From Rhodoplanes sp. Z2-YC6860 (GTDB lineage: Bacteria; Pseudomonadota; Alphaproteobacteria; Rhizobiales; Xanthobacteraceae): a stretch of 64,000 nucleotides of DNA. A model generated the notes under the pieces. That model was not told the origin of the DNA. It made no database searches and was given only the letters and a program-made list of their open reading frames with translations. The stretch's first letter is position 1; the number at the start of each line of letters is the position of its first letter. Positions 49,194 to 64,000 of the stretch are shown here, piece by piece. The stretch is from NCBI RefSeq assembly GCF_001579845.1, contig NZ_CP007440.1, forward strand, positions 7,586,029 through 7,650,028. Reading direction: 5' to 3'. The position numbers were made by a program, and so were the translations under genes.

Positions 49194-49835
49194 TCACCAA
49201 CGCAGGAGTCGAACCCCAAGCACCGCGCCAGTTAACACGCAAAGAGCAACTGCTCCGCCATACCAAACGGCCACGAACGGCAAGGAGTCATTGGGACAGT
49301 GCAACGCGTATGCCGCAGCGCCGATGCCACCGGCAACAAGACCGGCCAAAGCACCCGTCCTGGGCAAATTCGTGGGGGCAGCATCTCGGGCCGCCCTAAC
49401 GATGATCGCAAAGGGCACGATCGCCATGACGGGAATGGAGAGCAGGCACTGGAGCAAACGCTCGCCGGCAACAAGATGAGCCCACTGTGATGCCGGCACG
49501 AACATCAGATTCACTGCGGCCAGGGCCAGCAAGCCGACAAACGGAGCTCCTGCTGAATATATCGTAGAGCGTTTTTCCTCGCCGGGGCGCGTGTGCGTAA
49601 GCAACAGCCGCCAACCTAGGATGCTGATGATCGATCCAAATCCGATCTTGACGAACAGAAATTTCATGACCTCGGGATTGTTCAGGTCCGGGCGCATCCC
49701 CAACGCGACGATGCAGACTACTGACGAGAAAGCTAACCCAGAAACGGTCGCGATGGTTAGGCTTCGAAAGACCTTGAATCTATCTACGGGCTCAAGGTTG
49801 CTGCTGAGCAGATCGATCAGTTGTTCGGTCTTCAT
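49194..49835 (-). CDS. nrsF: anti-sigma factor NrsF (DUF1109)
   Basis: A 213-residue inner-membrane protein with six helices, beginning MKTEQLIDLLSSNLEPVD, the DUF1109 N-terminus. VGGIGAAAYALHCPNDSLPFVAVWYG in helices 5-6 contains the conserved His-Cys-x-x-Asp/Asn-Asp motif; NrsF anti-sigma factors keep their sigma factor at the membrane and respond to metal or oxidative stress through periplasmic cysteines. Its start overlaps the sigma gene stop by 4 nt. Confidence 0.9.
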   Translation of the reverse strand: MKTEQLIDLLSSNLEPVDRFKVFRSLTIATVSGLAFSSVVCIVALGMRPDLNNPEVMKFLFVKIGFGSIISILGWRLLLTHTRPGEEKRSTIYSAGAPFVGLLALAAVNLMFVPASQWAHLVAGERLLQCLLSIPVMAIVPFAIIVRAARDAAPTNLPRTGALAGLVAGGIGAAAYALHCPNDSLPFVAVWYGGAVALCVLTGAVLGVRLLRW

Positions 49836-50434
49836 CTTGCTTTTTCCCGCGAGACCATCGCTCTCAACTGCTTGATTCCACGGTGCACGTTCATCTTGAC
49901 CGCGGATTCGGAAATGCCGCAACGCGCCGCCGCTTCGACGACGCTGAGTCCCTCGATTTTTACGTATTGGACCGCCAAGCGAATTTTATCCGGCAGCTTC
50001 GCCAGAACTTTGTTCAGATCGAAGTGACTGTTCATCGCATGACTATCGTCTGACGCGATGATTTCGGCGGCGTCTTCGATGGGCACACTTTTCAACGTTG
50101 ATCGGTGCCGGCGCAGATAATCGATCAGTTTATAGCGAGCAATCGCATAGACCCAAGGTGTCAGGAGCCGAGTAGGATCGTATGTGTGACGTCGTGTGTG
50201 AACGGCGATGAGCGCTTCTTGAACCAGGTCTTCAGTCTCTTCCGCTTCACGGCCAGCTCGAACCAACTTGCCGCGATAATAGCCGCGCAGATGCACGCTG
50301 AGCTCGGAAAGCAGAACGCCATATGCAGCGCCATCGCCGCCCAGACCCGCGATCATCAAGGCCCGCAACGACGTCTCCTTCGCGCTTTCGGCCTTCGTCG
50401 TTTCGGAGTTCGACGTCTTCCCGTTAACGAGCAC
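49832..50434 (-). CDS. sigF: ECF sigma factor, SigF-like
   Basis: A 200-residue sigma-70-family protein: region 2 (YRGKLVRAGREAEETEDLVQEALIAVHTRRHTYDP, TPWVYAIARYKLIDYLRR) and region 4 (LPDKIRLAVQYVKIEGLSVVEAAARCGISESAVKMNVHRG). Coupling to a DUF1109 gene marks the SigF/NrsF class, which in Caulobacter answers to chromate, cadmium and copper and drives bufferin operons. Start GTG 50434. The three small secreted genes downstream on the same strand are likely targets. Confidence 0.9.
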   Translation of the reverse strand: MLVNGKTSNSETTKAESAKETSLRALMIAGLGGDGAAYGVLLSELSVHLRGYYRGKLVRAGREAEETEDLVQEALIAVHTRRHTYDPTRLLTPWVYAIARYKLIDYLRRHRSTLKSVPIEDAAEIIASDDSHAMNSHFDLNKVLAKLPDKIRLAVQYVKIEGLSVVEAAARCGISESAVKMNVHRGIKQLRAMVSREKAR

Positions 50435-50661
50435 GCTACCCCCATGTGAATGCGCCGGAAGAATGCAACGAGCTTTCGCTCCGTTGCGAACGCATCAGAC
50501 ATAAGCGGCTATCACGCCTGGAGGTGGTATTAGGCAGTTTAAAGTTCTGTGACGAGGCCGAGGCCGACATTCACGAGTGAGTGAGCTTGTGACCGCGCGG
50601 CATGAGCGTTCGAATTCATCGCCAGGCTCGATCGCCCTCACCACGGAGAGGATACAATCCG

Positions 50662-51174
50662 ATGTCGGTAATGACGCATCTCAGCGGTCTTTCGAAACTG
50701 AGTGAAAGCATATCCAATGCCGCAAAAATTTGGGCCCCACTGCCACTGCGGCTGATCGTCGGGTACGGCTTCATGGCGCATGGCTTCGCAAAGCTGGCAC
50801 GGGGCTTCGATGCGTTTCCCGCGATCTTGCAGGCACTGGGCATGCCGGCTCCGCACCTCTTGGGATCGCTGACGATCTTGGTTGAAATATTTGGCGGTCT
50901 GGCCGTGCTTTTAGGCGCGCTGGTGCCGCTGGCCAGCATACCGATGGCGGCGATCCTCCTCGTCGCCATGTTTGCCGTGCACCTGCCTTACGGATTCAGC
51001 TCGATCAAGCTGCAGGCTGTGACGGCGGCCGGTGCGCAGTTCGGCCCGCCTGGCTTTGAAACCGATCTCCTTTACCTCGCATGCCTCGCGGCCCTTGTCT
51101 TTTGGGGCCCGGGGCCATTGGCGATCGATAGCTTTCTGGCAAAGCGTAGAGAACCCACGCGCCTTCCGTCGTAA
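50662..51174 (+). CDS. DoxX family membrane protein
   Basis: A 170-residue protein with four helices and the DoxX pattern RLIVGYGFMAHGFAKLARG, LVEIFGGLAVLLGALVPLA and MFAVHLPYGF. DoxX proteins associate with quinone or thiol redox systems; a DoxX (BufD) is also a usual fourth part of bufferin operons, which is interesting since the sigma operon diverges from this gene. GGAGAGG lies 12 nt before ATG 50662. Confidence 0.85.
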   Translation: MSVMTHLSGLSKLSESISNAAKIWAPLPLRLIVGYGFMAHGFAKLARGFDAFPAILQALGMPAPHLLGSLTILVEIFGGLAVLLGALVPLASIPMAAILLVAMFAVHLPYGFSSIKLQAVTAAGAQFGPPGFETDLLYLACLAALVFWGPGPLAIDSFLAKRREPTRLPS

Positions 51175-51466
51175 AGAGAGGCCTTTTCATTTTGTAGAGG
51201 AGTTCCGGGCACTAATGGCGCAAACCCCAGAGTGGAAGCCGGCCGCCTGTGAGCGCCCGACGCAGACCGGCGCGACCAAAGTTGACTGAAAAAGGAATTC
51301 ATAGCTCCAGGCTATGAGAAGCACGTTGCGTTCAGCGACCAGATTACGAATATGACTCGTAACATCGCACGCTGGATCACAACACCCCGATCAATTGATG
51401 TATTGCAGGCTCGACCACACCGATGGCCTGCGTCGCTATTTTCTTTCTCGCAACGAAAGGGCCGGC

Positions 51467-52243: not shown

Positions 52244-52334
52244 CTCCTCTTACGCTGCTACTCGGAAATTCCGGGAGGTGCCGTTGCGGTGCTTCCCCGG
52301 TGTTGCCCCGAACCGACAAGCGGCGAACCTACCG

Positions 52335-53609
52335 ATGACGAACCAACGGATCACCAAGCGCGGCATAGAGGCCCTCCAATGCAACGGCCGCGAGTTTACC
52401 GTTTGGGACGACAGCGTGACCGGATTCGGCGTGCGGGTCCGCCCGAGCGGCGCGAAGTCTTACGTGGTGGTGTACAGGGCAGGCGCCGGCCGCGGCGCGC
52501 CGGTTCGTCGCTACACCATCGCGGCGGTTGGCAAGATCACACCAGAACACGCCAGGGAGCGGGCTAAAACGATACTAGGTTCGGTGGCGCACGGCCAAGA
52601 TCCAGCCAGCCAAAAGACTACCGAACGCGGTACGCCCACAGTGTCGGAATTGGCCGATCGCTTCATGGCCGACCACGTGCGCGCCAAGCGCAAACCTGGC
52701 ACTGCCGAGTTCTACCGCGACATCCTAGACCGTATCGTGAAGCCCGCGGTTGGCACCACCAAAGCTGACAAGCTAACTCGGTTCCAAACGGGCAAGCTGC
52801 ATTCCAGCCTTTCTGCAACGCCCTTTCAGGCCAATCGTGTGCTGGCAGTTGTGGGCAGTATGTACGCCTACGCTGGCCGCACGGGCATCGTCACGGAAGG
52901 GACCAATCCGGCGCGAGGAATTGAAAAATTCAAGGAAGATCGCCGGGAGCGGTTTCTGACCGGTGACGAACTGGAGCGGCTGGGTGCTGCTATCCGCGAG
53001 GCCGAAACGACCGGCATTCCATGGATGGTCGATGAATCCAATCCCAACGCGAAGCATGTCCCGAAGGAAAGACGCCTTACCAAGATCAGTCCGCCGGCCG
53101 CAGCGGCGCTTCGACTGCTTCTGTTCACGGGCTGCCGTCTACGGGAAATTCTCAATCTCAAATGGGATTATTTCGATGCGGACCGTGGCGTACTGTTCCT
53201 GCCTGACAGCAAGACCGGTCGAAAGACGATCATTCTCAATGCTCCCGCCCTTGCGGTATTGAACGGCATGCAAAGGGTCAGCGCTTACGTGGTCCCCGGC
53301 GACGATCCAGAGAAGCCCCGCCACGATCTCAAACGGCCTTGGGAAGCGGTCACCAAGCGCGCGGGCCTGAGCGGGGTACGCCTTCACGACCTACGACACA
53401 CATATGCGAGCTTCGGCGCCGCTGGCGGTCTGGGTCTGCCCGTTATCGGCCGCTTGTTGGGACACGCCCAGGCGGCAACCACCGCGCGGTATGCGCATCT
53501 CGACAACGATCCGCTCCGTCGTGCCTCTGAGTCTATTGCCGGCAAGATTGCAGCTGCGTTGGACGGGAATCGAAAGGCTGCGGTGGCGCCCATGCGCAAA
53601 CTGGCTTAG
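52335..53609 (+). CDS. tyrosine-type site-specific integrase
   Basis: A 424-residue integrase of the DUF4102/P4-like class. The N-terminal arm-binding domain (about 5-85, WDDSVTGFGVRVRPSGAKSYVV), a core-binding SAM-like domain (about 105-190) and the catalytic domain with the Arg of FTGCRLREILNL, HDLRHTYAS, LLGHAQAATTARYAHL (catalytic Tyr). It recombines tRNA-linked attachment sites, and the tRNA-Arg half lies next to it. Start ATG 52335; the SD is weak. All catalytic residues are present, so it may be active. Confidence 0.92.
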   Translation: MTNQRITKRGIEALQCNGREFTVWDDSVTGFGVRVRPSGAKSYVVVYRAGAGRGAPVRRYTIAAVGKITPEHARERAKTILGSVAHGQDPASQKTTERGTPTVSELADRFMADHVRAKRKPGTAEFYRDILDRIVKPAVGTTKADKLTRFQTGKLHSSLSATPFQANRVLAVVGSMYAYAGRTGIVTEGTNPARGIEKFKEDRRERFLTGDELERLGAAIREAETTGIPWMVDESNPNAKHVPKERRLTKISPPAAAALRLLLFTGCRLREILNLKWDYFDADRGVLFLPDSKTGRKTIILNAPALAVLNGMQRVSAYVVPGDDPEKPRHDLKRPWEAVTKRAGLSGVRLHDLRHTYASFGAAGGLGLPVIGRLLGHAQAATTARYAHLDNDPLRRASESIAGKIAAALDGNRKAAVAPMRKLA

Positions 53610-57980: not shown

Positions 57981-59135
57981 ATGGATGATCAAACCCGGCG
58001 GCCATTGAAGGCCCGGACTTGGGCCTGTCAGGCGCTTGGCGCGGGGGACCCCTCCACCCACGCGCTCGTTCCTCCCATCCACATGTCCGCGACTTATCTT
58101 CGCGATGCTGACAACGGCTACAGCGGCGGCTACGTCTACGGCCGCGCCGACAACGCCACAGTGCAACAGGCCGAAGCTCTGCTCGCTGCGCTGGAAGGCG
58201 CCGACGAAGCGATGACGTTCTGCTCGGGCATGGCGGCAGCGACCACGTTGTTCCTCGCGCTCGACCGTCCCACCCATATTGTTGCATCCGAGATCATGTA
58301 CTGGGGTTTTCGCGCGTGGCTGCGGGAGATCAATCGATACGGACATAGCGTCACGTTCGTCGACACCTCGGACTTGCAGGCGGTGACCAGGGCGATCCGC
58401 CCCGGCGAAACCGGATTGTTCTTCATCGAGACACCGAGCAATCCACTGTGGACCGTCACCGACATCGCGGCGCTGTCCGAGATCGCGCACTCTGCTGGCG
58501 CCTTGCTTTGCGTCGACTCCACGGTCTCAACGCCGGTCTTCACGCAGCCGATCGCACTTGGCGCAGACATCGTCGTGCACTCCGCGACCAAATATCTGAA
58601 CGGACATTCCGACATAGTAGCGGGAGCGCTCGCCGCGGCCGGGCCAAGTTCACTCTGGACGAACATCCAGCGGCTGCGCACGCAGCTCGGCAACACGCTC
58701 GGCCCGTTCGAGGCATGGCTCTTGATGCGTGGCATCCGAACCCTCGACCTACGCGTTCGCGAACAGGCGAAGACAGCCGCCATGCTGGCCCGTTGCATTG
58801 ATAGTCACCCGGCATTGAGCTCGGTGCTTTATCCTGGCCTCAAGAGCCATCCCGGGCACGAAGTGGCGCTACGCCAGATGAACGGCGGCTTCGGCGGCAT
58901 GCTATCGATCCGTATGAAGGGCGGCAGCGGCGCGGCCGTCAGAGTCGCGGCCGGTGTCAAAGTTTGGAAGCGGGCAACATCACTTGGCGGCGTTGAGAGC
59001 CTGATCGAACATCGCGCTTCGATCGAAGGGCCGGGTACGCCCTGCCCCGGCGACCTGCTCAGGCTTTCGGCCGGGCTCGAAGATCCTGACGATCTGCTGT
59101 TCGATCTTATTCGTGCGCTGGAAGCCGCTTGCTGA
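57981..59135 (+). CDS. Cys/Met-metabolism PLP enzyme (cystathionine lyase-like)
   Basis: A 384-residue trans-sulfuration-type enzyme. YVYGRADNATVQQAE (Tyr/Arg of the neighbour subunit), CSGMAAATT, FIETPSNP, VDSTVSTP and HSATKYLNGHSD with Lys204 for PLP are present; the C-terminus has SLGGVESLIEHRAS. Members are cystathionine beta- or gamma-lyases, synthases or methionine lyases; the sequence does not decide. The start MDDQTRRPLKARTWACQALG suits the family. It is followed by a sugar-transferase cassette by 27 nt. Confidence 0.85.
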   Translation: MDDQTRRPLKARTWACQALGAGDPSTHALVPPIHMSATYLRDADNGYSGGYVYGRADNATVQQAEALLAALEGADEAMTFCSGMAAATTLFLALDRPTHIVASEIMYWGFRAWLREINRYGHSVTFVDTSDLQAVTRAIRPGETGLFFIETPSNPLWTVTDIAALSEIAHSAGALLCVDSTVSTPVFTQPIALGADIVVHSATKYLNGHSDIVAGALAAAGPSSLWTNIQRLRTQLGNTLGPFEAWLLMRGIRTLDLRVREQAKTAAMLARCIDSHPALSSVLYPGLKSHPGHEVALRQMNGGFGGMLSIRMKGGSGAAVRVAAGVKVWKRATSLGGVESLIEHRASIEGPGTPCPGDLLRLSAGLEDPDDLLFDLIRALEAAC

Positions 59136-59162
59136 TCGCGATTTCAGAGAGAGGGGACGACT

Positions 59163-59882
59163 TTGAGCACCGTAGCTGTCGCCATCGTCTGCAAAACACC
59201 AGCGCCTGGAAAATCAAAGACCCGGCTGTCCCCGCCGCTACGCCCGGAGGAGTGCGCAGCTGTTTCCACCTGCTTCATTCGCGATCTTTCGGCCACCATC
59301 GCGGAGCTTTCGAAAGACGGCGATGCAACAGGCCATGCGGTGTACACCCCGCTCGGTTCGGAACAAGCCCTGCGGGCGCTAATACCCGGAAATTTCGGAG
59401 TGACTCCGCAATGCGATGGCGGCTTCGGCGAGCGCCTTTGGCAAGGAATCACGGACCTGCTTGATGCGGGACATGGCGGAGCCATCCTGATCAACTCCGA
59501 CAGTCCGACGCTGCCGCTCTCGATCCTGCGGGCCGCAGTCGATTCGATCAGGCAGGGCGACAATGTTGTGCTTAGTCCAGCCTTTGATGGGGGCTACACC
59601 CTGATCGGCCTGTCCAGGCCGCATCGACGGTTGTTCGAGGACATTCCATGGAGCACGAGCGAAGTTTATCGGCTCACGCTCGATCGTGCTCACGAGATCG
59701 GTCTGCCGGTCGTCAACGTGCCCGGCTGGTACGATGTCGATGACGCGGCTTCGTTGCAAATGCTGGAAGCCGAGTTGTCCGGCGGAAGCCTGCCGTTCGT
59801 GGCGCCGCCTGGTGCGCCCGCGCCCGCGACGCGACGCTTTCTGCGCGAGCGCCAATCCGCTTTGGCCGAACTGGCACGTTAG
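59163..59882 (+). CDS. DUF2064/TIGR04282 nucleotidyl- or glycosyltransferase
   Basis: A 239-residue GT-A-like protein: VAIVCKTPAPGKSKTRLSPPL, the loop that holds the nucleotide, INSDSPTLP with a metal-binding Asp, FDGGYTLIGLSRPH and VPGWYDVDD. Family members are named after an arsenosugar gene, but most lie in polysaccharide or lipid contexts; no arsenic gene is near. TTG start at 59163 with GAGGGGA before it. It is 2 nt ahead of a GT2 gene, so translationally coupled. Confidence 0.85.
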   Translation: MSTVAVAIVCKTPAPGKSKTRLSPPLRPEECAAVSTCFIRDLSATIAELSKDGDATGHAVYTPLGSEQALRALIPGNFGVTPQCDGGFGERLWQGITDLLDAGHGGAILINSDSPTLPLSILRAAVDSIRQGDNVVLSPAFDGGYTLIGLSRPHRRLFEDIPWSTSEVYRLTLDRAHEIGLPVVNVPGWYDVDDAASLQMLEAELSGGSLPFVAPPGAPAPATRRFLRERQSALAELAR

Positions 59883-59884
59883 GC

Positions 59885-60646
59885 ATGGGCCGCATCATGC
59901 CATTCCCGGTCAGCCATCACCGCGTAACCGTTGTCATTCCTTGTTTGAACGAAGCCGAACCGATCGCCGGCGTAGTCCGCGAGGTGCTGGCGCAAAATAT
60001 TGATCATGTCATCGTGGTGGATAACGGCTCAACCGACGATACAGCGCGCAAGGCCGCGTCCGCCGGTGCGGTCGTGGTCCGCGAACCTATACGAGGTTAT
60101 GGTCGCGCATGCGCAGCGGGCGTGGCGGCAGCGCCTCCTGGCACCGAGATCGTCTGCTTTCTCGACGGTGACGGCAGTGACATCCCGTCCTTCCTTCCCG
60201 AAGTGGTTGGTCCCGTTGCTGCAGGCGAAGCCGATTTCGTCATAGGCTCGCGGGTGCTCGGCAGGCGCGAGCCTGGCAGCATGACTGCGCAGCAGCTCGT
60301 CGCTGGCTGGCTCGCCGGAATTCTGCTGCGTCTGACGTATGGCGTGACATTTACCGACATGTCGCCATTCCGCGCCATGCGCCTTGACCAGCTTCGCTCG
60401 CTCGGCATGGCGGAACAGACCTACGGCTGGAATCTCGAGATGCAGATGAGGACCGCCGCTGCAGGCTTGCGCATCCGTGAGGTCGCCGTCGACCATCGCT
60501 GCCGCCAAGGCGGCGTGTCGAAGGTATCGGGCAATCTCGTCGCGGGCCTGAACGCCGCCTGGAAGATCACGACGACGTTCCTGCGACTCGCCGTGGCACT
60601 CCGCGCACAGAAGCCCCTGTCGCCCGCGCACGAGATCCCAAAATGA
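59885..60646 (+). CDS. family 2 glycosyltransferase
   Basis: A 253-residue GT2 enzyme: VTVVIPCLNEAEPI, IVVDNGSTDDT, FLDGDGSD with the metal Asp pair, and YGWNLEMQMR. It has no membrane helix beyond the terminal hydrophobic patch, unlike DPM-type enzymes with tails. It transfers a sugar from a nucleotide donor, perhaps to polyprenyl phosphate. It ends overlapping the epimerase gene by 4 nt. Confidence 0.9.
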   Translation: MGRIMPFPVSHHRVTVVIPCLNEAEPIAGVVREVLAQNIDHVIVVDNGSTDDTARKAASAGAVVVREPIRGYGRACAAGVAAAPPGTEIVCFLDGDGSDIPSFLPEVVGPVAAGEADFVIGSRVLGRREPGSMTAQQLVAGWLAGILLRLTYGVTFTDMSPFRAMRLDQLRSLGMAEQTYGWNLEMQMRTAAAGLRIREVAVDHRCRQGGVSKVSGNLVAGLNAAWKITTTFLRLAVALRAQKPLSPAHEIPK

Positions 60647-61671
60647 AAGCCTTGCTGACCGGAGGTGCCGGATTCATCGGCCAACACGTGATGCGCGAAC
60701 TGTTGGCGCGCGGTCACGAAGTGCGTCTGCTCGATTCCCTTCGTCCTGACGTCCATGCGGCCCAGAACTGGAAGCCGCCGGAGGGCGTCGAGCTGGTCAA
60801 AGGGGATGTGCGGGACAAAGCTGCAATCGACAACGCGCTCTCAGGTGTTGAGGTGGTGCTGCATCTTGCCGCCAAGGTTGGGCTCGGTGTTGACGTTGGC
60901 GATCTCCCCGACTACGCGTCGTCGAACGACGCTGGCACTGCCGAATTGCTCGCGGGTATGGCGCGCGCTGGCGTGTCGCGCCTGACGCTCGCGAGTTCGA
61001 TGGTGGTCTATGGCGAGGGCGTCGGCCACTGCCCGGAGCATGGTTCGGTGATGCCGGCCCCACGATTGGAACGTGATCTCGCCGCTGGCCGGTTTGAGCC
61101 GCCCTGCCCGACCTGCGGCCGGCCGCTGGCAACGGCTCTGGTCAGCGAAAATGCGCCGCTTGATCCGCGCAACGCCTATGCCAGCAGCAAAGTGGCGCAG
61201 GAATTTTACTGCAGCAACTGGGCGCGCGTGACCGGCGGCTCGATTGCCGCCATGCGCTATCACAACGTCTATGGTCCCGGTATGCCGCGCAACACGCCCT
61301 ATGCCGGCGTGGCTGCGATCTTCACCTCTGCGCTTCGTCGTGGCGAAGCCCCGCGGGTATTTGAAGACGGCGGGCAGCGACGCGATTTCGTCCATGTGCG
61401 TGATGTCGCGGCCGCAACAGTCACAGCCTGTGAAAAGCACCGCGCTGGCGTGCGCGCATTCAATGTCGGCTCCGGCACGCCGCGCACCGTGGGCGAAATG
61501 GCCTACGCACTGGCCGAGGCTCTCGACGGCCCCCAACCGGTTGTCACCGGACAATTCCGGCTTGGCGACGTTCGCCACATCACCGCTGATTCTTCGAGGC
61601 TGCAGCAAGAACTTGAGTGGCATCCTAAGGTCGAATTTGCGAGCGGCATGGCGGAACTGGCGTCTCTGTAA
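60643..61671 (+). CDS. NAD-dependent sugar epimerase with zinc-ribbon insertion
   Basis: A 342-residue SDR protein: ALLTGGAGFIGQHV (dinucleotide loop), LHLAAKVG, LASSMVVYGEG, and the catalytic Tyr179-x3-Lys183 in AYASSKVAQ. An unusual insertion at about 128-160 carries Cys130-x2-His133 and Cys155-x2-Cys158, spaced as a zinc site in the substrate loop. Extended SDRs of this type interconvert nucleotide sugars. The overlap with the GT2 gene suggests both act on the same sugar. Confidence 0.88.
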   Translation: MKALLTGGAGFIGQHVMRELLARGHEVRLLDSLRPDVHAAQNWKPPEGVELVKGDVRDKAAIDNALSGVEVVLHLAAKVGLGVDVGDLPDYASSNDAGTAELLAGMARAGVSRLTLASSMVVYGEGVGHCPEHGSVMPAPRLERDLAAGRFEPPCPTCGRPLATALVSENAPLDPRNAYASSKVAQEFYCSNWARVTGGSIAAMRYHNVYGPGMPRNTPYAGVAAIFTSALRRGEAPRVFEDGGQRRDFVHVRDVAAATVTACEKHRAGVRAFNVGSGTPRTVGEMAYALAEALDGPQPVVTGQFRLGDVRHITADSSRLQQELEWHPKVEFASGMAELASL

Positions 61672-61805
61672 AGGACGAGACAGCGCGGACCGCCATTGCG
61701 TTGATCCTCTGACATGCGATTGCCGTGGCGAAAGATCGATTCGATAGCCTTCCGCTATCCCAGTTGATGTTATCTATCTGGCTGACGCTCCAGCGATGAG
61801 CGCAA

Positions 61806-62522
61806 ATGCCAGCCCCTGGGCCGAACTTGAACAAATTGAATTCCGATACTCCGCAGCCCGAGACAGAGGCTGATACACTCAACGCCCGCCTGTCCGCTTA
61901 CCGCCAGCAAAGAGCAAAACAGCGGCCCGATTTCGCACGCGCCTATGACCGGCTGGTCGAACGGCTTGCGAAGCTCAGTCGCGGCGAGGTGGGTCCGCAG
62001 GTCGGCGAACCGATGCCTCTCTTCGACCTGCCCGACGAGACCGGCAGTCTCGTCTCGCTCGCATCGATGCTGCAATCGGGGCCGGTGGTCGTCAGCATCA
62101 ATCGCGGCCATTGGTGCCCCTATTGCAAGATGGAACTGCGAGCGCTGGCAACCGCGCAACAACGAATCGCGAAGCTCGGCGCGCGGATCGTCTCGATCAT
62201 GCCGGACACAGCGCAATACACCAGCGGCTATGCTGTGCAGAACGATCTGCCATTTCCGGTGCTGAGCGATATGGACCTCGGTTATTCGCTAGCGCTTGGC
62301 TTGATCTTCTGGGTTGGTGCAGAGGTCCAGCAGCTCTATCAGGACGCCGGTGTCGAGCTCGAAAAGTACCAAGACAACCAGGGCTATTTCCTGCCGATGG
62401 CGGCGAAATTCATCGTGGGCCGCGACGGGCTGATCAAGGCCCGGCAAGTCAATGTCGAATTTCGCGAGCGCATGGAGCCCGAGGCGATCATTGCGGCGCT
62501 CGAGGCGCTGCGCGGCGCGTAA
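61806..62522 (+). CDS. peroxiredoxin-like (AhpC/TSA) protein
   Basis: A 238-residue thioredoxin-fold protein. SINRGHWCPYCKMELRAL contains a Cys-x-x-Cys in place of the Thr-x-x-Cys of typical peroxiredoxins, and FPVLSDMDLGYSLALGL and FIVGRDGLIKARQVNVEF complete the fold. The N-terminal 50 residues are an extra helical segment. It likely reduces peroxides or disulfides. It precedes the bufferin operon by 118 nt on the same strand and may be co-regulated. Confidence 0.82.
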   Translation: MPAPGPNLNKLNSDTPQPETEADTLNARLSAYRQQRAKQRPDFARAYDRLVERLAKLSRGEVGPQVGEPMPLFDLPDETGSLVSLASMLQSGPVVVSINRGHWCPYCKMELRALATAQQRIAKLGARIVSIMPDTAQYTSGYAVQNDLPFPVLSDMDLGYSLALGLIFWVGAEVQQLYQDAGVELEKYQDNQGYFLPMAAKFIVGRDGLIKARQVNVEFRERMEPEAIIAALEALRGA

Positions 62523-62640
62523 ACTGGCATAGCGCTCCGCTATCGCAACGATTGGCCGACGATATTTCATCTCATGCGTCAAAGGCGGCACTCTCGTCTC
62601 AACGCTCGATCATGAGCGTTTCGCAAACGGGAGAGTTCTC

Positions 62641-62925
62641 ATGTCGCACAAGACCACATTGTCGCTCGCGATCGCAGCCGCGCTCACGTCCGCCCTTGCC
62701 ACGACCGTGGTTTCCACCGCGCAGGCCGGCGCCAAAGAGAAATGCTACGGCGTCGCATTGAAAGGCCAGAACGATTGCGCGGCCGGTGCCGGCACCACCT
62801 GCGCGGCGACCTCGAAGGTCGACTACCAGGGCAATGCCTGGAGGCTCGTCGACCAGGGCAGCTGCATCACCACGCAGACGCCGCAAGGCGCAGGCTCGCT
62901 GACGCCGATCAAGCGGCCGTCGTAA
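62641..62925 (+). CDS. bufA1: bufferin precursor BufA1 (DUF2282)
   Basis: A 94-residue precursor. Signal peptide to about residue 29 (cleavage ahead of GAKEKC), then four Cys at 35, 46, 54 and 75 in [27 protein letters not shown] and DQGSC, the DUF2282/bufferin-1 pattern. From published work on bufferins, the cysteines are turned into thiooxazoles by the BufB-BufC enzyme and the product sequesters copper in the periplasm. GGGAGAG precedes the ATG. bufB and bufC follow directly. Confidence 0.9.
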
Positions 62926-62995
62926 CCCGCCTCGCGGAAGCCGGTGCGGTGCGCCGCGCTGGCTTCCGCCCCACGGCCGCCACGGGAGGAACGCT

Positions 62996-63844
62996 ATGGC
63001 TCATTGCATTGCCGGCACAGGGCTCAAGCCCGAGCACGCGGACGACATTTTCGCAGGCGCCCGCCGCGTCGATTTCTTCGAGATTCACGCCGAGAACTAC
63101 ATGGGCGCCGGTGGTCCGCCGCATCATCTGCTGCGCCGCATTCGTGCCGACTATCCGCTGTCGATCCATGGCGTGGGACTTTCGATCGGCGGTACAGCGC
63201 CGCTTGATCGCGCACATCTGATGCGACTGAAACGACTCGTTAGGACGTATGAGCCGGCGTTGTTCTCCGAACATCTTGCCTGGTCGACTCATGATGGTGT
63301 GTTCCTGAACGATCTTCTGCCGCTGCCTTACAACGACATCTCGCTCGCCCATGTCTGCGCCCATGTGAACGAGGTGCAAGACACGCTCGGCATGCGGATG
63401 CTTCTGGAGAATCCCTCCACTTATGTCGCCTTCGGCGCGACCCAGATGAGCGAGATCGAATTTCTCGGCACCGTCGCGCAGCGCACCGGCTGCGGACTTC
63501 TGCTCGATGTCAACAACGTGCATGTCTCGGCGGTCAACCATGGCTTCGACGCCGGGGCCTATATCGACGACTTCCCAATCCAGCATGTCGGGCAATTCCA
63601 TCTTGCGGGCTTCGCCGAAGACCGCGACAGCACCGGAGCCGAACTCCTGATCGACAATCACGGCCAGCTGGTCGCGGACATCGTTTGGGATCTCTACCGG
63701 CAGGCGCTAGCGCATGGCTGCCTCGCCCCTACCTTGGTCGAGTGGGACAACAATTTGCCGCCGTTCGAGACGCTGACCACCGACGTCGAGCGGGCGCGGA
63801 CGCTGATGCTGGCGCAAGCCGCCGACCTCAAGCAGGCTGCGTAA
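62996..63844 (+). CDS. bufB: multinuclear iron oxidase BufB (DUF692)
   Basis: A 282-residue TIM-barrel protein of the MNIO family: VDFFEIHAENYMG, LSIHGVGLSIGG, LFSEHLAWSTHDGVFLNDLLPLPY, MLLENPSTYVAFG, LLLDVNNVHVSAVNHGFDA and GQFHLAGFAEDRD give the His, Glu and Asp ligands for two to three irons. With BufC it modifies cysteines of BufA. The same family makes methanobactin (MbnB). GGGAGGA lies 5 nt before ATG 62996. Confidence 0.95.
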   Translation: MAHCIAGTGLKPEHADDIFAGARRVDFFEIHAENYMGAGGPPHHLLRRIRADYPLSIHGVGLSIGGTAPLDRAHLMRLKRLVRTYEPALFSEHLAWSTHDGVFLNDLLPLPYNDISLAHVCAHVNEVQDTLGMRMLLENPSTYVAFGATQMSEIEFLGTVAQRTGCGLLLDVNNVHVSAVNHGFDAGAYIDDFPIQHVGQFHLAGFAEDRDSTGAELLIDNHGQLVADIVWDLYRQALAHGCLAPTLVEWDNNLPPFETLTTDVERARTLMLAQAADLKQAA

Positions 63845-63848
63845 CGCC

Positions 63849-64000
63849 ATGATCGCGCTATCCATCGAGAGCGGTCACGCCCAGCTTCAGCGCGACTTCG
63901 CCGAAGCGATCCTGTTCGACGACGCGCCGATCCCGGCAACGATCCGCTCGGCGTCCGGCCCGGCGCATGCCAGCCGCTTCGGCGTCTATCGCAACAATGT
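63849..64000 (+). CDS. bufC: BufC (DUF2063), 3' partial
   Basis: The gene starts 4 nt after bufB and runs off the window after 50 codons. LQRDFAEAILFDDAPIPATI and ASRFGVYRNNV are the opening of the DUF2063 partner protein, which presents the precursor to BufB. The rest lies outside. Confidence 0.88.
   Translation, partial: MIALSIESGHAQLQRDFAEAILFDDAPIPATIRSASGPAHASRFGVYRNN

Follow-up and report, generated by a model that had tools for sequence, protein, structure and literature searches.

What switches on the bufferin operon at the edge of this stretch of the Rhodoplanes sp. Z2-YC6860 genome? Bufferins may answer copper, other metals or oxidants. In Caulobacter, bufferin operons are described as controlled by sigma F and induced by copper (PMC3511200 and PMC8224329, available text). 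A survey links bufferin operons to genes for a sigma factor and NrsF and calls other conserved neighbors very rare (PMC12452194, available text); as given there, the count of unrelated genes reached no further than 10 bp and would miss a regulon made of separate units. The accessible part of PMC13097082 anticipates that bufferins act under metal stress and oxidative stress and mentions “transcriptional regulators” near such operons, and the word “LysR” has no match in the accessible parts of either article. In our literature search we found no bufferin operon described as regulated by a LysR protein or by OxyR. The best reading of our sequence comparisons is that the bufferin operon of this strain was captured by a thiol-sensing LysR-peroxiredoxin regulon, and that bufABC may be switched on by a redox sensor in place of the sigma factor for metal stress that usually does so.

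The bufferin operon and its neighbors

The window, by which we mean the whole 64,000-nucleotide stretch analyzed (G000:C1:7586029-7650028, from a genome of 8.19 Mb in one contig), ends inside the operon. Features past its right edge are given in L002 numbering, to which 57971 is added to obtain the window position. The genes are as follows.

61806-62522, + strand: prx1, AhpC/TSA-Redoxin peroxiredoxin-like protein of 238 aa (PF00578, 66 bits)
62641-62925, + strand: bufA, Buf1 (DUF2282) precursor of 94 aa (PF10048, 76.8 bits, cut-off 22.4)
62996-63844, + strand: bufB, multinuclear non-haem iron oxidative enzyme (MNIO) of 282 aa (PF05114, 345 bits)
63849-64000 in the window, then on to the end of L002:5878-6651, + strand: bufC, 257 aa (DUF2063, 89.8 bits)
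L002:6819-8141, + strand: ndh, NDH-2-like oxidoreductase
L002:8165-9052, + strand: lysR, LysR-type regulator (LTTR)
L002:9085-9783, - strand: prx2, second peroxiredoxin
L002:9968-10453, - strand: cupin, N-terminus signal-like by eye
L002:10570-11049, - strand: DUF302
L002:11228-11701, - strand: DoxX
L002:11910-12734, + strand: SDR

The original prediction of a bufferin operon at the right window edge holds for genes, domains and gaps alike: the order is bufABC, with 70 nt between bufA and bufB and 4 nt between bufB and bufC, and by its sequence the operon is of the ordinary Buf1 bufferin type. BufB passes the NCBIfam equivalog model for MNIO_BufB (NF050167; 375 bits, cut-off 310) and has 3bww and MbnB as PDB relatives, and BufC scores 51.4 bits against the HvfC model, under the cut-off of 142. 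Although the window holds just the first 152 nt of bufC, the gene is complete in its own genome, and extension to the right gives an intact frame of 257 aa with the DUF2063 domain. A genome search recovers one MNIO gene and one DUF2282 gene. A DoxX gene directly 3' of a Buf1 operon is frequent, not universal. The DoxX-type BufD expected next to bufC was not found there; ndh follows instead, and the nearest DoxX gene lies about 4.6 kb further on, on the other strand. To the left, positions 57981-61671 hold an enzyme of the Cys/Met-metabolism PLP family, a TIGR04282 glycosyltransferase-like protein, a GT2 protein and an NAD epimerase, which carry no operator of the kind described below and are apparently unrelated.

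The BufA precursor has cysteines at 35, 46, 54 and 75. When it is aligned to bufferins all four match, and because the same four are common to every one of the 127 BufA compared (distinct loci), the precursor is not the new sequence variant it had been taken for. Its sole departure is A56, two residues past Cys54, where 94% of the 127 have Gly; A56 is common to five of the eight precursors of the operator type defined below. By hydropathy the N-terminus resembles a signal peptide: a hydrophobic stretch begins at residue 10, and residue 30 is preceded by AQA. We set aside an AlphaFold model of BufA (25 sequences), whose mean pLDDT is 59.4 and falls below 50 in the Cys46/Cys54 segment. Periplasmic copper buffering by BufA is a fair transfer from characterized bufferins, and these, like fontiphorin, are reported as copper-binding (PMC12452194 and PMC13097082, available text). 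Those reports speak against a scenario in which the peptide is made for a purpose other than copper, its thiooxazoles acting as sacrificial thiols or binding another metal under oxidant stress. We think this scenario unlikely, even though several neighbors look redox-related, none of the 15 proteins scanned matches a copper transport family, and methionine sulfoxide reductases are among the members of sigma-F-type regulons (PMC8315932 and PMC8224329, available text).

Predicted operators and the composite promoter

Inverted repeats of the form ATAG-N7-CTAT recur around the operon, with five in 16 kb where 0.01 are expected. They lie before prx1, bufA, prx2 and cupin and between DoxX and SDR, and all of the following elements are predicted.

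61744-61758, + strand: operator 1, ATAGCCTTCCGCTAT, 47 nt 5' of prx1
62529-62568, + strand: composite promoter of bufA, consisting of operator 2, ATAGCGCTCCGCTAT (62529-62543), then CG-N15-GATATTTC ending at 62568
L002:9862-9876: operator between the prx2 and cupin genes
L002:10550-10564: operator between the cupin and DUF302 genes
L002:11786-11800: operator between the DoxX and SDR genes

This 15-mer is the inverted repeat and consensus of OxyR and fits the T-N11-A LysR box (PMC5002191 and PMC5720770, available text). Operator 2 is located 97 nt 5' of bufA, and the distance is equal in G006 and G290. The whole genome contains 16 such sites (reversed control, 10), of which five fall inside 8.03 kb at this locus. 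Since the 15-mer alone exceeds its control genome-wide in only two of 11 relatives (in G006, 13 versus 26), the argument is carried by the clustering of sites and by the composite promoter.

The composite emerges from 55 promoters lined up in the direction of their genes, in most of which the site precedes CG, then 15 unconstrained bases, then GRnATTTC. Read as an OxyR-type tandem, the first site is exact and the second, at +22, is degenerate, with a mean of 4.4 of 8 positions in the same 55 promoters. The prx promoters are without the composite spacing (0/39). The exact right half has 31 matches in 11 genomes and none in the reversed control; 28 of these fall inside cluster stretches, and the two in the Rhodoplanes genome stand before bufA and cupin. 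The exact composite occurs twice in this genome, both times in the cluster. Allowing up to two mismatches, the full composite has five matches there, four of them in the cluster (bufA, cupin, DoxX and SDR), against one in the control.

Other sites in the genome were considered as further targets and rejected: of nine sites in eight stretches, six are inside ORFs. Another two of the nine adjoin LysR genes, for which the best model is CynR, at scores below its cut-off. Within the window, an isolated site, ATAGCTCCAGGCTAT (51301-51315), is situated between a DoxX gene and a PAS-like ORF (PAS by eye) and has no downstream promoter element.

It had been suggested that prx1, whose stop codon is 118 nt from the bufA start, may belong to the bufferin unit. 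This suggestion is strengthened by the ATAG-N7-CTAT site in front of prx1 and by the position of the gene directly 5' of bufA in this strain and in G006, G290 and G119, though the arrangement is not found in the other four operator-type loci; prx1 seems to be part of the regulon.

The regulator and the distribution of its candidate sites

Two cysteines of the LTTR stand out by conservation. Among 31 distinct homologs of at least 40% identity, Cys25 is present in all, Cys198 in 29 (Trp in the other two) and Cys71 in 25, and both Cys25 and Cys198 are invariant in a set of 14 aligned proteins that includes four paralogs of 35-38% identity. Cys198 aligns with the GHC-motif cysteine of OxyR chain 6g1b, which we take to be peroxidatic. 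The system is like an OxyR regulon in its predicted 15-bp operator, with a weak candidate for the second site 22 bp on, the adjacent peroxiredoxin genes and the cysteine at the peroxidatic position. It differs in the regulator, which on its score against the OxyR equivalog model (83 bits, cut-off 329) is not OxyR and whose 31 aligned homologs have no conserved second (resolving) cysteine near Cys198, though the Rhodoplanes protein itself has CEKC. Its apparent targets are also local: cupin, SDR, DoxX and bufferin, and in relatives DUF302 as well. LsrB of Rhizobiales offers a parallel in the same order, as a thiol-based redox regulator of the LysR family that exists alongside OxyR, although Agrobacterium LsrB is described with cysteines 144, 236, 244 and 273 and with global targets such as katG (PMC11975290, available text).

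To follow the cluster across relatives, we searched with BufB at E 1e-60, which gave a match in 44 of 101 relatives and 173 of 391 family genomes; from a total of at least 590 named loci, we retained the best 80 for comparison. LysR homologs at the same threshold occur in at least 10 of 101 relatives (up to 23 candidates scored per genome) and at least 26 of 397 genomes (up to 6 scored). The LTTR gene is convergent with a peroxiredoxin gene in 28 of 29 cases, and the 29th is at a contig end. In G290 and G119 the cluster order is nearly kept, with LysR identities of 88 and 86%, and G119 has no DUF302 match in the cluster. In G290, the ndh match between bufC and lysR covers only about 79 aa (L189:13429-13665) and is a fragment.

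Across genomes, candidate operators gather around this regulator gene. Thirty LTTR regions (435,615 bp) contain 62 sites, compared with 4 when the site is reversed as a control, with seven of the 30 lacking an exact site. ATAG-N7-CTAT is absent from 64 of 68 other bufferin stretches (1.18 Mb), these being the stretches of over 9 kb from the best 80 loci that lie outside LTTR regions. The remaining stretches have 8 sites (control 4), seven in L004, L005 and L007, of the operator clade described below, and one in L019. Taking 69 sites in 33 loci, 65 are no more than 330 nt 5' of a matched cluster gene, and no matched gene contains one. A site is present within 260 nt upstream of cupin in 16/16 cases, bufA in 5/7, DoxX in 5/7, prx1 in 4/5, DUF302 in 4/8, SDR in 9/20, prx2 in 11/34, lysR in 7/33, ndh in 1/6, bufB in 0/7 and bufC in 0/6.

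This distribution bears on whether the sites might instead belong to the genome's OxyR, with bufABC in an ordinary OxyR regulon and the local LysR protein doing something else. The genome does encode an OxyR-like protein (375349-376218) that, at 267.8 bits, is far above the next best (113.7) though under the cut-off of 329, and the 15-mer is the OxyR consensus. The members of an OxyR regulon should be scattered over the genome; the composite in this genome is confined to the cluster save for one match with two mismatches, and across genomes the sites gather round the LTTR gene and are missing from most other bufferin stretches. Control by OxyR consequently appears improbable to us, and we assign the sites to the local LTTR as the preferred reading.

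Bufferin loci can also be sorted by promoter. We compared 127 distinct loci in which bufA is preceded by 300 nt of sequence or more, all near relatives of the Rhodoplanes BufB and not a sample of all bufferins. An LTTR-type site stands before bufA in 8 of them and a sigma-F-type promoter in 52; the two never occur together, and 67 loci have neither. The sigma-F pattern used (GTAAC-N16-18-CGAA) is less strict than that in the literature, and 20 of the 127 loci have it on the wrong strand. The controls gave one reversed site and two backwards sigma-F patterns. The operator-type loci are those of Rhodoplanes, G006, G025, G039, G107, G119, G290 and G613, and in all eight the exact right half of the composite is directed at bufA. 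In two of them, G025 and G107, the composite directed at bufA has a degenerate left half, and the exact 15-mer found there serves the DUF302 direction. In a BufB tree, seven of the eight form one clade (100/99) and G613 stands apart. Two promoter changes are required on this tree, and a single change suffices for none of 200 bootstrap trees, yet the starred branches by themselves demand no more than one. In contrast, G112 has a bufferin operon 2.5 kb from its LysR cluster with a sigma-F-type promoter and no site.

Sigma F itself is encoded in the window.

49832-50434: sigma F (ECF sigma factor), 11 kb upstream of the bufferin operon

Positions 49194-51174 comprise NrsF (204.6 bits), this ECF sigma factor and a DoxX/HvfX-like gene, and no bufferin gene adjoins them; an integrase gene (52278-53609) lies between this module and the bufferin operon. 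The presence of sigF, nrsF and doxX could be taken to mean that bufABC is an ordinary copper-inducible operon with sigma F in control through an unrecognized promoter, the LysR sites serving only the neighbors, and the 67 loci with neither mark do indicate that other promoters exist. Against sigma-F control, GTAAC-N16-19-CGAA is absent from the whole window. The operator at its fixed distance before bufA in three genomes and the lack of any locus with both marks further argue against sigma F, and we rate this explanation very unlikely. For the preferred reading, control by the local LTTR, the orphan module is consistent, as we infer, with a past transfer of the operon from sigma F to the LysR protein.

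Three relatives, like the seven LTTR regions without an exact site, weigh against the preferred reading. In G006, no LTTR is detected at E 1e-60 among 23 of 59 candidates scored; in G039, only LTTR paralogs of 36-38% are beside the buf genes; and in G025 the LTTR is on a separate contig, with no exact site there. G006 is a MAG with 9% contamination in which BufB, after about residue 189, is fused in frame to transporter-like sequence (L127:5354-7084), probably a misassembly. One Hyphomicrobiales MAG has a tandem pair of MNIO/DUF2063 pairs (L013:3253-7667). At L019:12770-13734, a 35% LysR paralog preceded by ATAG-N7-CTAT is 3' of a bufferin operon that lacks the site before bufA, and in G096 the same 15-mer is on the other strand about 3 kb from bufB. 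Finally, a genus of 6-9 Mb genomes (L192-L200, in G112, G259, G196, G251, G167, G151, G133 and G209) has a LysR-peroxiredoxin-cupin cluster, mostly with SDR, and the same operators. Bufferin genes are missing from these stretches, except near the cluster in G112, and the cluster looks like a redox regulon in its own right.

A proposed thiol-sensing regulon

Based on these comparisons, prx1 and bufABC probably belong to a local LysR regulon that also covers prx2, cupin, DoxX and SDR. Sequence-level support comes from the genes, the predicted operators, the synteny, the absence of overlap with sigma-F-type promoters and the conserved cysteines. In the model we propose, the LTTR would bind ATAG-N7-CTAT together with the degenerate second site 22 bp on, in the manner of OxyR, and oxidation or metal binding at Cys198 would shift the protein and jointly activate bufA, the peroxiredoxins and the other targets. 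BufB and BufC would then modify the two central cysteines of BufA, as in Buf1 systems (PMC12452194, available text), presumably to thiooxazoles, and BufA, exported by Sec, would bind copper in the periplasm. Copper chelation and peroxide removal would thus form one joint response.

The operon is like those of the sigma F/NrsF regulon in Caulobacter (CC3254-3257 and CC2907-2905) in combining a DUF2282 precursor, a DUF692 MNIO and a DUF2063 partner, and a sigF-nrsF pair and a DoxX gene are likewise present in our window. The Caulobacter promoters are GTAACC-N16-CGAA (PMC3511200, available text), whereas here we find predicted ATAG-N7-CTAT operators, and the operon is flanked by a peroxiredoxin gene on its 5' side and a LysR gene on its 3' side. 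The Pep3 cluster of Pseudomonas fluorescens, where DUF692 and DUF2063 genes are listed with a LysR family regulator gene, is also similar, but it is described with a COG3767-type precursor and a DMT transporter, and the available text names neither an operator nor a mode of regulation (PMC8719888). The operon type of our locus is known; its regulatory setting is apparently new.

A broader proposal, to which we give an even chance, is that a Hyphomicrobiales lineage, and G613 independently, moved the bufferin operon from sigma-F metal-stress control to a one-cysteine, OxyR-like LysR regulon, thereby placing a thiooxazole peptide in a peroxide/disulfide response in which Cys198, perhaps with Cys25, senses oxidants or copper. 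The locus points to a LysR-peroxiredoxin-cupin-SDR-DoxX regulon in Hyphomicrobiales, of which our literature search found no description. For bufferins themselves, an operon with a likely redox-type LysR regulator and clean operators offers a direct test of what induces bufA.
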